Assembly: GCF_004138295.1 (NCBI RefSeq)
Contig: NZ_SCFM01000017.1
Span: 89,337-153,336 of the forward strand
DNA: 64,000 bases
Direction of reading: 5' to 3'
From: Ectobacillus funiculus
Lineage (GTDB): Bacteria; Bacillota; Bacilli; Bacillales; Bacillaceae_G
Made by a program: the position numbers and the translations under genes. This document shows positions 1,317-60,592 of the stretch, piece after piece (the first letter of the stretch is position 1; every line of letters starts with the position of its first letter). The notes beneath the pieces were generated by a model. That model saw only the letters and a list, made by a program, of their open reading frames with translations. It was not told the origin of the DNA and made no database searches.

Positions 1317-1452
1317 CTAAAGAAAACTCGCCGATTGGCAAGCCCTGCCCTTGGGCGAAGACAGAGGCGTAGTTGCACTTATACTGTATTCCTAAAATTC
1401 CCTACTACGCCGAATGAACTTCTAGCTGGGAATTTATACTTTCTTACAGTGA
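1317..1452 (+). repeat. Structured intergenic repeat, copy 1 (full length)
   Basis: Starts TAAAGAAAACTCGCC and ends TTTCTTACAGTG. It carries the inner stem arm GAAGACAGAGGCGTAG with its partner near CTACGCCGAATGAACTTC, which has drifted here. It lies between lacI and a minus-strand terminator. No ORF with a start signal. Confidence 0.95.
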
Positions 1453-1455
1453 GAA

Positions 1456-1490
1456 AAAGACAGCCTTGATATACAAGGCTGCCTCACATT
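1456..1490 (-). terminator. Intrinsic terminator downstream of iolT copy 1
   Basis: On minus the stem CAGCCTTG / CAAGGCTG is followed by TCTTTTTC. A sequence-related terminator lies downstream of the second iolT at 43797-43835. Confidence 0.75.
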
Positions 1491-1732
1491 CATTATTGAT
1501 AGTCTCTACAGCATACAGCACCCTTTTCAGAGAAGTGCGTACGACTTTTTAATAAAGTCTGATAGTACTACATTCGGTAACATGACCTAAGGTAGAACAA
1601 TGGAGGTGTTCTCAAGTCGCTTAACCCATCAATCAAATCAGCAAATTTTGAATCAACACTCCATTTCGTAATAGGGTGATGTACTTCGACAGCCCTATGT
1701 AAACTGCATACTTACAATTTATTTTTCTAGTC
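1490..1732 (-). ncRNA. Candidate small RNA or long 3'UTR after iolT copy 1
   Basis: About 240 bases without a credible gene lie between a cre-like site and a terminator. Short patches (AGTTTACATAGG, AAATTTGCTG, AATGAATGTG-terminator) recur in the same order after the second iolT (43836-43995), although the flanks have diverged. One short open frame here has no start codon or ribosome binding site. This could be a CcpA-controlled small RNA, an iolT 3'UTR or a decayed gene. The conservation is seen; the RNA role is inference. Confidence 0.3.
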
Positions 1733-1746
1733 ATAAGCGCTTACAA
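1732..1746 (-). promoter_or_regulatory. cre-like site just downstream of iolT copy 1
   Basis: TGTAAGCGCTTATG on minus matches 12 of 14 positions of the Bacillus cre consensus. A similar site is at 43995-44008 in the same place relative to iolT copy 2. Confidence 0.45.
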
Positions 1747-1755
1747 TTATTTTTC

Positions 1756-3189
1756 TTATTGGACCTTCATCATTGATTTATTTGTGTTGCCCTGATCATA
1801 TTGTGAACGGAAATGCTCCTCTATATCTTCAAGTGTGCGTCCATTTGTTTCTGGCATCCATTTGTAAACGAAGCCAATTCCCAATATACCAAGAACGACA
1901 AAAATAAAGAATGTAGTAGATAGACCTACAGAGCTTAGCAGTATTGGAAAAGTAAAACCAATAATAAAGTTTACAATCCATAGGAAAAATACACTAATAC
2001 CAGCCCCAAGACCCCTTAGTCTTTGCGGGAAGATTTCTGCAATGACTAACCATGTTACCGGTCCAACACACGCCTGCATAAAGGCAAGGAATAACACCGT
2101 TAAAGAAAGCACAACATACGGAAGGGCAGCCGATCCTTCAAGTACCTTTGAAAATATTGCAATAAGTAAAAGTGCTGTTGTGGTTCCAGACAAACCAATA
2201 ATCAACATGGGACGACGATTTACCTTACCAACCATCCAAATCCCAAATACGACTGCAATCACTGAAACGAGCCCATTCGCAATGTTAGCAATTAAAGCCG
2301 CCTTCGTACCAAAGCCAGACTCTTCAAGAATTTGCGTTCCATAATACATAATGGAGTTAACACCTGTAATTTGATTTACCATGGCAACCCCAATGCCAAT
2401 TAACAAAACGCGGCGCAGCCATGGTGCGGCAAAGTCTTTGATAGATGCCTTTTCAAGCTCTGAATCCCTTTGTAATGCTGCTTCAATTTCATGAAATTCA
2501 GTTTGTGCTCGTTTCTCGTCACGTATTTGTTTCAGAACACGCAGCGCCTCATTCTTTTTCCCTTTTGCAGCTAGCCATCTTGGGCTCTCTGGAACAACAA
2601 GCATACTTACAAATAGCGCTAAAGCCGGAATTGCACAAATAAAAAGCATGTATCGCCAAACATGTCCAGTATCAGCCATTGTAACACCAAGAATAGCGTT
2701 GAAAACGTAGGCTAATAATTGCCCGCCAACAATCATAAATTCATTCATCGTCACCATTCGGCCGCGTTGCTCATGGGGTGCCATTTCTGCTAAAAAGGCC
2801 GGTACCATCGATGATGCCCCGCCAACAGCGAGCCCTAGTAAAAACCGGAAGACAACCATGATTGAAACATTAGGCGCAAATGTAGTTCCAAGTGATGCTA
2901 ACAGGAATAAAAACGAAAGATTAAGGATCATTTTCCGACGACCATAGCGGTCTGCTAGTTTACCGCACGCTAACGCACCAAATGCAGCTCCTAATAGAAG
3001 CGAGCTCGTAACAAGACCTTCTGTAACTGGTGTTAGATGAAGCTGATCAGGCCTTTCCATAAAAGGTAAAGCTCCGTTGATAACCCCAGTATCATATCCA
3101 AAAAGAAGCCCGCCAAAGGTCGCAGAAATCATAATAAGCTGCAAAAAGCTTTTATAATTTCTTGGGTTCTTCCTCCCTTGATTGCTCAT
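1756..3189 (-). CDS. iolT: Sugar-porter MFS transporter, myo-inositol transporter IolT-like
   Basis: A 477-residue proton symporter of the sugar porter family, predicted to import myo-inositol across the cytoplasmic membrane. Visible signatures are the N-terminal TM1 motif GGLLFGYDTGVINGALPFM, the loop 2-3 motif DRYGRRKM, PESPRWL before the central loop, NQITGVNSIMYYG in the C-terminal half, and PETNGRTLEDIEEHF at the C-terminus. There are twelve hydrophobic segments. It resembles B. subtilis IolT throughout. The start is preceded by GAGG at about 10 bases. It lies about 220 bases downstream of the dehydrogenase gene on the same strand. A close paralogue is at 44038-45471. Other inositol isomers or hexoses are possible substrates. 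Confidence 0.88.
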   Translation of the reverse strand: MSNQGRKNPRNYKSFLQLIMISATFGGLLFGYDTGVINGALPFMERPDQLHLTPVTEGLVTSSLLLGAAFGALACGKLADRYGRRKMILNLSFLFLLASLGTTFAPNVSIMVVFRFLLGLAVGGASSMVPAFLAEMAPHEQRGRMVTMNEFMIVGGQLLAYVFNAILGVTMADTGHVWRYMLFICAIPALALFVSMLVVPESPRWLAAKGKKNEALRVLKQIRDEKRAQTEFHEIEAALQRDSELEKASIKDFAAPWLRRVLLIGIGVAMVNQITGVNSIMYYGTQILEESGFGTKAALIANIANGLVSVIAVVFGIWMVGKVNRRPMLIIGLSGTTTALLLIAIFSKVLEGSAALPYVVLSLTVLFLAFMQACVGPVTWLVIAEIFPQRLRGLGAGISVFFLWIVNFIIGFTFPILLSSVGLSTTFFIFVVLGILGIGFVYKWMPETNGRTLEDIEEHFRSQYDQGNTNKSMMKVQ

Positions 3190-3405
3190 GCATGATCACC
3201 CTCATTTGCTGTATTGTGCCAACCTCTAATTCATACACTGCTTCTCGTTTTACTTTACTTTTAACAATATATAAGTCCAACTTAAACATCTGATATATCA
3301 CTAACTCTGCCACTTAATGAATACTTGAACTGACCTGCTTTAAATATGTGGAAACATTAAAATGGACTTATATAGTCATCAAATAACGAGTAGCGTGCCC
3401 TCCAA

Positions 3406-59535: not shown

Positions 59536-59604
59536 ACTGTTTTTCCTCTCTTTCACATTACAATCTTGCTTTATCTGCTTTGAAGGTTAAAGTTATAAAG
59601 CTAC

Positions 59605-59963
59605 TTATGGCTTGATTACTAAGTCTGGCTTCTTTTTCAAGCTATGCTTCCCATCAATAAAACGAACTGTCCCTGATTTCGCACGCATTACAACTGAATG
59701 TGTCGTTCCTACATTTCCGTTGTATTGAACCCCTTTTAACAGCTCCCCATCAAGTTACACCGGTTGCAGCGAAAATGGCATCATCACCTTTTACAAGGTC
59801 CTCCATTCGTAATACTTGGTTTACATCCTCGATCCCCATTTTTTTGCAGTGCCCTAATTCTTCTTCGCTTTGCGGCAAAAGTTTTCCTTGAATCATCTTT
59901 TCATGTCGTTCTCGATTTAAAATCGTAACAACTAAATCCTCAACTTCTTTATTTTTCGCCTTC
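59605..59963 (-). pseudogene. glpX: glpX (class II fructose-1,6-bisphosphatase) pseudogene
   Basis: On minus ILNRERHEKMIQ joins directly to GKLLPQSEEELGHCKKMGIED, then GDDAIFAATGVT. One extra T shifts the frame (ACT TGA for ACT GAT), and then DGELLKGVQYNGNVGTTH and MRAKSGTVRFIDGKHSLKKK complete the end. The 5' part is lost next to a repeat fragment. About 50-60 residues are missing between RHEKMIQ and GKLLPQ. It is therefore inactive. Confidence 0.85.
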
Positions 59964-60005
59964 GCCTCCGGCTGGAAACTTATACTTTCCTACAGTGTAA
60001 AAAAC
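59964..60005 (+). repeat. Structured repeat, tail fragment (copy 22)
   Basis: CTCCGGCTGGAAACTTATAC and TTTCCTACAGTGTAAAA. It sits exactly where the glpX pseudogene is cut. Confidence 0.85.
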
Positions 60006-60021
60006 ATGGTGCCTTTCGTAA

Positions 60022-60348
60022 TCATCCGCATCCTATAACCCTATCAATTGGTTCTGATACAGAAACTAATTTTTTTATATCTTGCAACATAAAAACTGGG
60101 ATGGGGAAAAAACTCAGTTTACCTGAAGGTGTAATAATTCGTTTCCATTGAATTTCACCCTCAATCTCAACTCTTTCCCCAACAATTAAAGAAACCTCTA
60201 ATTCTTCACTTAAAATGGGAAGAATCTTAATTCGATCTTCCCCTACCTGAACTCCATGCTCAGCCTCAAGAAAGAAGATGCACTCGTTATTGTTATACCA
60301 AAGCTTTGGATACGGTCTTTGTTTGAAAACTTCTCCTGTAATTCTCAT
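60022..60348 (-). CDS. Uncharacterised small protein
   Basis: A 108-residue soluble protein starting MRITGEVFKQRPYPKLWYNN. Alternating hydrophobic/charged pattern (LEVSLIVGERVEIEGEIQWKRII) suggests a small beta-barrel, but I do not recognise a family. AGGAG lies 8 bases before ATG 60348; the frame can also start at a TTG three bases upstream. It is flanked by repeat copies on both sides. Confidence 0.6.
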   Translation of the reverse strand: MRITGEVFKQRPYPKLWYNNNECIFFLEAEHGVQVGEDRIKILPILSEELEVSLIVGERVEIEGEIQWKRIITPSGKLSFFPIPVFMLQDIKKLVSVSEPIDRVIGCG

Positions 60349-60373
60349 CAAAATCTCTCCTGGTTAATCCTGT

Positions 60374-60513
60374 GATAAAGAAAACTCGCCGATTGGCAAG
60401 CCCTGCCCTTGGGCGTAGACAGAAGCGTAGCCCTACTTACACCGTATTCCTAAAATTCTCCGATACGTCGAATGAACTTTCTAGCCAGGAATTTATACGT
60501 CCTTACAGTGTAA
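60374..60513 (+). repeat. Structured intergenic repeat, copy 23 (tandem, first unit)
   Basis: Head GATAAAGAAAACTCGCCG, GCCCTTGGGC, TACGTCGAATGAACTTTC, tail TACGTCCTTACAGTGTAAAG. Confidence 0.95.
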
Positions 60514-60592
60514 AGAAAACTCGCTGGCTGGCGAGCCATTAGGTAAAGAGGGAAGCATAATTGCACTCATACTTTGCTCTTAAAGTGTAAAA
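60510..60592 (+). repeat. Structured intergenic repeat, copy 24 (tandem, second unit, right half deleted)
   Basis: Head AAAGAAAACTCGCTGGCTGGC, altered middle (GGTAAAGAGGGAAGCATAA), direct jump to CTTAAAGTGTAAAAA. Confidence 0.85.

Follow-up and report, generated by a model that had tools for sequence, protein, structure and literature searches.

The described repeat closest to the element reported here is bcr1, a structured repeat of 147-167 bp that occurs in tens of copies, has features of mobile elements and carries a TTTAT motif tied to its mobility (PMC6542083, PMC3446304, PMC2267715). Our element is a non-coding repeat of 134 bp, dispersed over a 64,000-nt stretch of the Ectobacillus funiculus genome (assembly GCF_004138295.1, contig NZ_SCFM01000017.1, positions 89,337-153,336 of the forward strand; this whole stretch is hereafter the window). 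It resembles bcr1 in being a short, structured, mobile-like repeat, a likeness judged from published descriptions. Elements of the IS200/IS605 family have hairpins at both ends and a target beside the left end, and insert into the lagging-strand template (PMC6006769). REP and REPIN sequences are intergenic palindromes of high copy number, whose tandem arrays lie in opposite orientation at two places of the chromosome (PMC3116915), and the hairpin foot of REPs is marked by the tetranucleotide GT[AG]G (PMC6006769). As in REP/REPIN-RAYT systems, our element is intergenic, palindromic, abundant and found in tandem arrays, but by eye one strand of its foot reads AAAAC, the opposite strand has AGGG or AAGG there, and GT[AG]G is missing. 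Group IIC introns insert beside terminators (PMC7923331) and the element also adjoins terminators; in genome G015 all seven chromosomal RVT_1 genes are leading-sense, the polarity of the T-run strand of the element. Unlike these introns, it has no match to group II RNA in Rfam and contains no protein.

The initial annotation, made from the sequence of the window, had proposed a dispersed family of structured repeats of about 140 bp with about 24 copies or fragments, and this was borne out. The head motif TAAAGAAAACTCGCC matched 21 times with three or fewer mismatches (2.48 expected; maximum of 7 across 100 shuffles), an iterated nhmmer profile produced 24 matches at E ≤ 0.01, and the covariance model R1, for which 85 near-complete, non-redundant copies were aligned, produced 22 at the same threshold (Table 1). 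Alignment A1 left out copies that were more than 97.5% alike, scored below 95 bits or were incomplete. Two of the nhmmer matches, at 26378-26449 and 28211-28347, lie on the minus strand, as already proposed. The unit starts with TAAAGAAAACTCGCC and finishes with CTTAMAGTG, and its length was set at 134 bp because array units elsewhere in the genome start exactly 134 bp apart; arrays of this exact period, with units often scoring equally, run onward from G000:C108:14844 (G000 being the source genome), C24:213107 and C46:153419.

In 400 kb of the source genome picked regardless of copies (20 stretches of 20 kb, hereafter the unselected stretches) there were 50 matches at E ≤ 0.001. From this density of 125 per Mb, about 680 copies are estimated for the 5.45 Mb of the genome; the window is about three times as dense. 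A search of the whole genome sets the count at at least 150, since 150 of its 3556 candidates were scored and all 150 matched. Nearly all copies are intergenic, as the initial annotation held: only 3 of 194 copy clusters lay within an open reading frame (ORF) of at least 100 aa in a set of 41 stretches (the window and 40 others, most picked around copies), and 1 of 44 in the unselected stretches. At the gathering score, the sole Rfam match in the whole window was a lysine riboswitch, with none to the element, and a permissive scan of the copy of one relative gave seven matches, all far under the gathering score and to unrelated families. No known family matched the element in Rfam or in the literature searched, ISfinder being outside the comparison. 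Neither of the two outcomes named by the initial annotation as refuting it has thus come about, since stems with compensatory changes exist as well.

The target of the element is mainly one-sided. On the head-first strand, 87 copies have a 3′ flank of the form T-A-A-A-A-A-A-A, A standing at +3 in 98% of them and at +7 in 82%, and in 75 copies the 5′ flank shows only a weak preference (A in 59% at -1, T in 41-49% at -3 to -5). Read in the leading-strand sense, in which the element runs from CACTTTAAGAAAG at its left end to GGCGAGTTTTCTTTA at its right end, a YTTTTTTA-like run stands directly before the left end. The right end reads CTTTA, and the next base is T in the 59% of copies that have A at -1; on the left side the T-run is followed by A. 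Both can be compared with the TTTAT of bcr1. Of 169 left-end flanks, 45% have a strong hairpin (score ≥ 20) ahead of the T-run; the share is 4% among 151 right-end flanks and 11% among 600 intergenic sites matched for a T-run. In other genomes, the minimum free energy was -16.2 for 55 left-end flanks and -5.4 for 59 opposite flanks. This enrichment indicates that copies often lie directly beyond predicted terminators.

Empty sites and target duplications had been suggested as a check, and only the first was found. One empty site was identified: three tandem copies at 3274-3659 of contig L025 are absent at the matching place of the source genome (G000:C82), which has the T-run, by eye behind a weak hairpin, and shows no target duplication. 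Likewise, no consistent duplication appeared in 104 isolated copies, where 2 of 160 combinations of length and offset exceeded three standard deviations, both of them 3-mers (6 and 7 copies).

The orientation of the element follows replication more than neighbouring genes. On the complete chromosome of genome G015 the head-first strand opposes the GC skew in 43 of 45 matches, one plasmid match being excluded; the skew was sampled in 20 stretches and changes sign at 1.03-1.12 Mb and 3.51-3.87 Mb. On that of G008, 23 of 27 matches are in the replication orientation, the match at 4662743 sitting in an unsampled stretch beside the origin. For the source genome we used the skew of each stretch, contig position being unknown, and took simple ORF calls as genes: the head-first strand was lagging-sense in 155 of the 185 clusters with two neighbour genes, most of them from stretches picked around copies, and in 38 of 44 clusters of the unselected stretches. 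The replication orientation was kept by 89 of 104 clusters between two leading-strand genes and by 13 of 18 between two lagging-strand genes, so that gene direction is not the explanation of the bias.

One strand of a typed consensus folds better than shuffled sequences (z = -3.09; reverse strand, z = -2.17). Three helices show compensatory change, with a hairpin domain at either end of the element. Helix (a) is the head hairpin CTCGCC/GGCGAG of the initial annotation, that is, the right-end hairpin, which covaries between species, where its pair and pair-type counts were exceptional (reached by 0 and 0 shuffles) on an alignment that was structure-fitted; this hairpin is terminator-like and followed by TTTTCTTTA, and two heads in 12000-24000 of the window scored as terminator-like on the minus strand. 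Helix (b), the inner stem of the left-end domain, is an 8-bp pairing AAATTTCY/RGAAATTT (positions 78-85 with 111-118), with 32 double-change cells within the genome, reached by 0 of 500 shuffles, and a score of 0.406 against 0.113 (standard deviation 0.020) across 32 sequences. Helix (c), the closing stem of the same domain, is ACTKT/AMAGT (66-71 with 128-133), with 29 double-change cells within the genome (0 of 500 shuffles) and a score of 10.48 against 7.89 in shuffles (standard deviation 0.23) across 64 elements. Helices (b) and (c) are nested, so that the left-end domain is closed at the very end of the element; several of the shortest relatives carry one long hairpin as this domain, and others fold weakly.

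RNAalifold on the 85 copies returned four pairs, all from an alternative helix in which an arm of the head hairpin pairs with a segment before TAGTTGC. Nine of 64 sequences lack the motif in place and were omitted; scored separately in each of the other 55 elements, this helix reached 10.55 against 7.82 in shuffles (standard deviation 0.21), and the head may thus conserve two pairings that exclude each other. The imperfect inverted repeats proposed for head and tail are present, 91.4% paired between species. The proposed long-range stem GAAGAC...CTACG was not borne out: a structure with the stems of the initial annotation, this one among them, does not covary in the genome, the score of that structure being reached by 411 of 500 shuffles, and a comparison of species gave not one double change in the CGTAG/CTACG part of the stem. 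Covariation in the right half belongs to other stems. Wobble pairs showed no overall strand preference (in the source genome 280 G-U against 322 A-C, stems S1 and S3 leaning oppositely), so the pairs tell neither the folding strand nor RNA from single-stranded DNA.

The initial annotation had also called for a search of the genome and its relatives for count and spread. With strict filters, R1 was positive in 37 of 119 genomes near the source genome, itself included, and negative in the three other genomes of its genus. A second model, R2, built from 32 copies of 29 genomes (alignment A3 left out L054, L057 and second matches within one locus), was positive under strict filters in 51 of the 398 genomes that represent the class, source included, and in 28 of 146 genera. 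For bcr1, confinement to the B. cereus group has been reported (PMC6542083). A 16S pattern assigned to that group matched none of 397 genomes of the order. Among the 32 distant rows, 22 measure 81-108 bp and 22 start exactly with TAAAGAAAAC, and a core, TAGTTGCACTTAT, is nearly constant; arrays occur in some relatives as well (L193, L050).

The element is almost confined to chromosomes. Of 72,556 plasmid records one contained it, that of a large plasmid from a host that carries it too, and of 50,697 phage records none did, both sets possibly lacking the records closest to the source genome; in viral contigs, one 22-base pattern had no exact match. That plasmid (CP053689.1) is deposited as Arthrobacter citreus, of the Actinomycetota, and its copy shares the start coordinate with a match on G015:C2; as G015 is placed in the family of the source genome, the deposited name looks wrong. 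Contig L025 (NZ_JAPSKV010000025.1), from a metagenome-assembled genome of Fredinandcohnia onubensis, has best pieces 92-94% identical to the source genome, the other matches of that assembly to a 20-kb piece of the window are 65-78% identical, and in that search L025 was the only contig with element matches; from these identities, it may be misbinned. Around 57 relative loci, 91 of the 104 ORFs listed were scanned and gave 131 Pfam families, of which the 25 listed had mixed functions and no transposase. HSP70 and DnaJ domains were each present in 3 of these 91 neighbour proteins, and copies of different genomes may share one dnaK-dnaJ gap.

The empty site, the arrays, the copy number, the patchy distribution, the one-sided target and the replication-linked orientation support a non-autonomous mobile element, one of two interpretations offered by the initial annotation; the other, a mobile RNA structure, was favoured neither way, as the stems covary but the wobble pairs lack a strand preference. 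IS200/IS605 elements are not known to duplicate their target. With hairpins near both ends, a target on the left flank only, no duplication and a bias towards the lagging-strand template, the element matches IS200/IS605-like single-strand insertion; it differs in that no Y1 transposase with matching ends was found among the loci examined and in that many of its targets include a terminator hairpin, and for want of a matching transposase we do not claim membership in that family. We tentatively favour the reading that this is a non-autonomous element lying beside T-runs, often those of predicted terminators, oriented mostly by replication and inserted as a single strand at the fork by an enzyme acting in trans, a plausible account that we would not yet call probable. 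The lagging-strand template would expose the hairpin and T-run as a single strand, and the enzyme would read the hairpins of both ends and join at TTTA. Each inserted copy, ending in a terminator-like hairpin and TTTTCTTTA, would then be the next target, and such a self-made target would explain the start of arrays, which may afterwards grow via slippage or unequal recombination, processes that the equal units fit as well.

Several observations weigh against single-strand insertion, the first of them concerning the enzyme. The source genome has two Y1_Tnp matches, broken or partial, and of the 27 element-bearing genomes searched (out of 36 known besides the source) 21 had a match and 6 had none. 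The 28 genomes and 32 Y1 loci looked at yielded no Y1 gene bounded by the ends of the element; two of the loci (L026, L081) hold an element within about 1.5 kb, not at the ends of the Y1 unit, and at 125 per Mb the one near the L026 gene is unsurprising. Together with six RVT_1 loci, these yielded no enzyme with matching ends, such as the initial annotation had suggested looking for; DDE, serine, tyrosine and other HUH enzymes were not searched. A guide tetranucleotide, which would lie 5′ of each hairpin foot and pair with the cleavage site, was not recognizable: by eye, some relatives have TAAA at a distance of two bases from the foot, and the source genome does not. Moreover, a need for a terminator hairpin is not known to us from any IS200/IS605 element.

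The insertion data hold further points of this kind. Only one empty site was compared, and about 8 bases differ there between sequences that are about 92% identical, perhaps lost on insertion or the product of ordinary divergence. In the unselected stretches, the sole cluster between two lagging-strand genes is leading-oriented. Truncation is commoner at the right end than at the left, a bias that single-strand transposition does not predict: 34 lack the end far from the T-run and 17 the T-run end (p = 0.024, with 6 internal deletions set aside; 40 and 21 before that). This asymmetry is weak, the unselected stretches having 8 and 6.

Regarding structure, the covariation shuffles do not preserve relatedness, and slid-column controls, which do, scored lower than the true columns for helices (a), (b) and (c). 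Pair and pair-type counts were unexceptional for helix (b), being reached by 69 and 44 of 500 shuffles in the genome and by 110 and 164 of 500 across the 32 sequences, and for helix (c) in the genome (276 and 262 of 500). The genome signal of helix (c) comes from one pair (28 of 29 cells) and that of helix (b) mainly from two (31 of 32), and alignments A2 and A4 were fitted to the structure of the model itself.

The main rival, which we consider unlikely, is that a structured RNA is reverse-transcribed, for example by the enzyme of a group II intron, onto the T-run beside a terminator hairpin at the fork. Terminators are reported targets of group IIC introns (PMC7923331), compensatory stems are present, and two open RVT_1 genes of the source genome lie next to matches to group II intron RNA. 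RVT_1 was present in 27 of 37 element-bearing genomes and 42 of 82 others, but the 10 element-bearing genomes without a match include G013 and G079, with at least 28 element matches each, and none of the six RVT_1 loci scanned contains the element. The excess of far-end losses would also fit reverse transcription, although it nearly vanishes in the unselected stretches. In copies that lack the far end, the tail is about as diverged as in full copies (0.127 against 0.116); where the T-run end is lacking, the head is more diverged (0.129 against 0.077), which looks like later decay. Against an RNA intermediate, Rfam finds no group II core in the element, and neither strand shows an overall excess of G-U over A-C pairs. 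A more specific version, less probable still, is a bacterial retroposon comparable to eukaryotic short interspersed elements: a small structured RNA that encodes no protein would be copied into DNA on the T-runs of terminators at the fork, perhaps by the group II intron enzymes already present, and the terminator end of each copy would be the next landing site. If true, it would be the first bacterial counterpart of those elements known to us, spread through the class.

Lower again in our estimation, and rather doubtful, stands a functional cassette in place of a transposing element, for example one that reinforces terminators, which selection would maintain and which would have spread through recombination or through template switching from one T-run to another. 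It would account for the terminator-like hairpin and T-rich stretch of the right end, for the two heads with terminator-like scores on the minus strand, for the exact TAAAGAAAAC of 22 of the 32 distant rows and for arrays of equally scoring units, and the recurrence of HSP70 and DnaJ neighbours suggests that some copies may share one gap across genomes. Nevertheless, the 13 of 18 clusters that keep the replication orientation do so between opposing genes, where a terminator would face the wrong way, and template switching alone leaves the class-wide conservation of one core unexplained. Finally, a classical DDE-type miniature inverted-repeat transposable element, with short terminal inverted repeats TAAAGAAA/TTTCTTA, is improbable, for while imperfect terminal repeats do exist and DDE transposases were not among the enzymes searched, neither the 104 isolated copies nor the empty site shows a consistent target duplication, the target signal is mainly one-sided and orientation is linked to replication.

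Copies, fragments and example target sites of the window are collected in Table 1.

Table 1. Copies and fragments of the 134-bp element, and example target sites, in the window (bit scores are those of model R1)
Feature	Coordinates	Strand	Evidence
Full copy	1318..1451	+	R1, 163.9 bits
Hairpin with A/T tract touching the 3′ end of the element, example target site	1452..1485	-	By eye, not scored singly
Full copy	7740..7871	+	R1, 134.2 bits
Head hairpin alone (head and inverted head, palindromic)	12501..12535	+	Head motif, nhmmer
Full copy	13816..13949	+	R1, 158 bits; minus-strand head scored terminator-like
Fragment, tail part	15752..15857	+	R1, 27.6 bits; nhmmer tail 15828-15858
5′-truncated copy, nhmmer model positions 75-136	15878..15991	+	nhmmer, R1
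Copy with internal deletion	18100..18216	+	R1, 95.7 bits
Full copy	19769..19902	+	R1, 135.9 bits
Hairpin adjoining the 19769..19902 copy, example target site	19910..19935	+	Terminator scoring
Full copy	21949..22082	+	R1, 158.4 bits
5′-truncated copy	22463..22567	+	nhmmer, R1
Inverted, decayed copy	26313..26449	-	R1, 44.9 bits
Inverted full copy	28214..28347	-	R1, 157.1 bits
Tail fragment	31457..31527	+	R1, 24.2 bits
Full copy, first in head-to-tail pair	32506..32639	+	R1, 159.8 bits
Decayed copy, second in pair with 32506..32639	32640..32748	+	R1, 35.7 bits
3′-degraded copy	33566..33695	+	R1, 63.6 bits
Copy without second hairpin	37739..37855	+	R1, 111.3 bits; alignment
Head hairpin alone (head and inverted head, palindromic)	41449..41482	+	Head motif, nhmmer
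Full copy	49254..49387	+	R1, 114.2 bits
Tail fragment	50901..50962	+	nhmmer, R1
Full copy, first in head-to-tail pair	56558..56686	+	R1, 130.4 bits
Second in pair with 56558..56686, without second hairpin	56687..56801	+	R1, 110.6 bits; alignment
Tail fragment	59956..60000	+	nhmmer
Full copy, first in head-to-tail pair	60376..60510	+	R1, 126.1 bits
Second in pair with 60376..60510, internal deletion	60511..60634	+	nhmmer, R1

The two head hairpins of Table 1, in which a head and its reverse complement meet without the rest of the element, have similar counterparts in the flanks of L013 (9034) and L011 (9132), and may be bidirectional terminators or fold-back products. Two Peripla_BP_4 genes are tandemly duplicated (54689-55651 and 56906-57871); the element pair at 56558-56801 adjoins the second, and there is no element match at the equivalent place beside the first. 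The lysine riboswitch (40843-41020, minus strand) lies upstream of an amino acid permease gene (39282-40706, minus strand), and a similarity of the element to it was rejected, since local alignments scored 16 and 18 and shuffled sequences averaged 17.5. Additionally, a 358-bp direct repeat of the window (14025-14682; 90% identical over 300 bp) holds two similar genes next to each other, the first of which encodes an ArsR-type regulator domain, and 21-bp in-frame repeats (5145-5312) lie near the C terminus of a penicillin-binding protein gene (5087-7486, minus strand).

If single-strand insertion is right, these repeats would form a large non-autonomous superfamily whose core, TAGTTGCACTTAT, is deeply conserved and which is undescribed in Rfam and in the literature compared above. 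It raises the question of which enzyme moves hundreds of copies, given that no Y1 or reverse transcriptase locus with matching ends was present among those examined. Because it lands beside terminators and itself ends like one, the element is a candidate for escaping harm by stacking stop signals, and its orientation is so bound to replication on one complete chromosome that it could serve to mark replichores in draft genomes.

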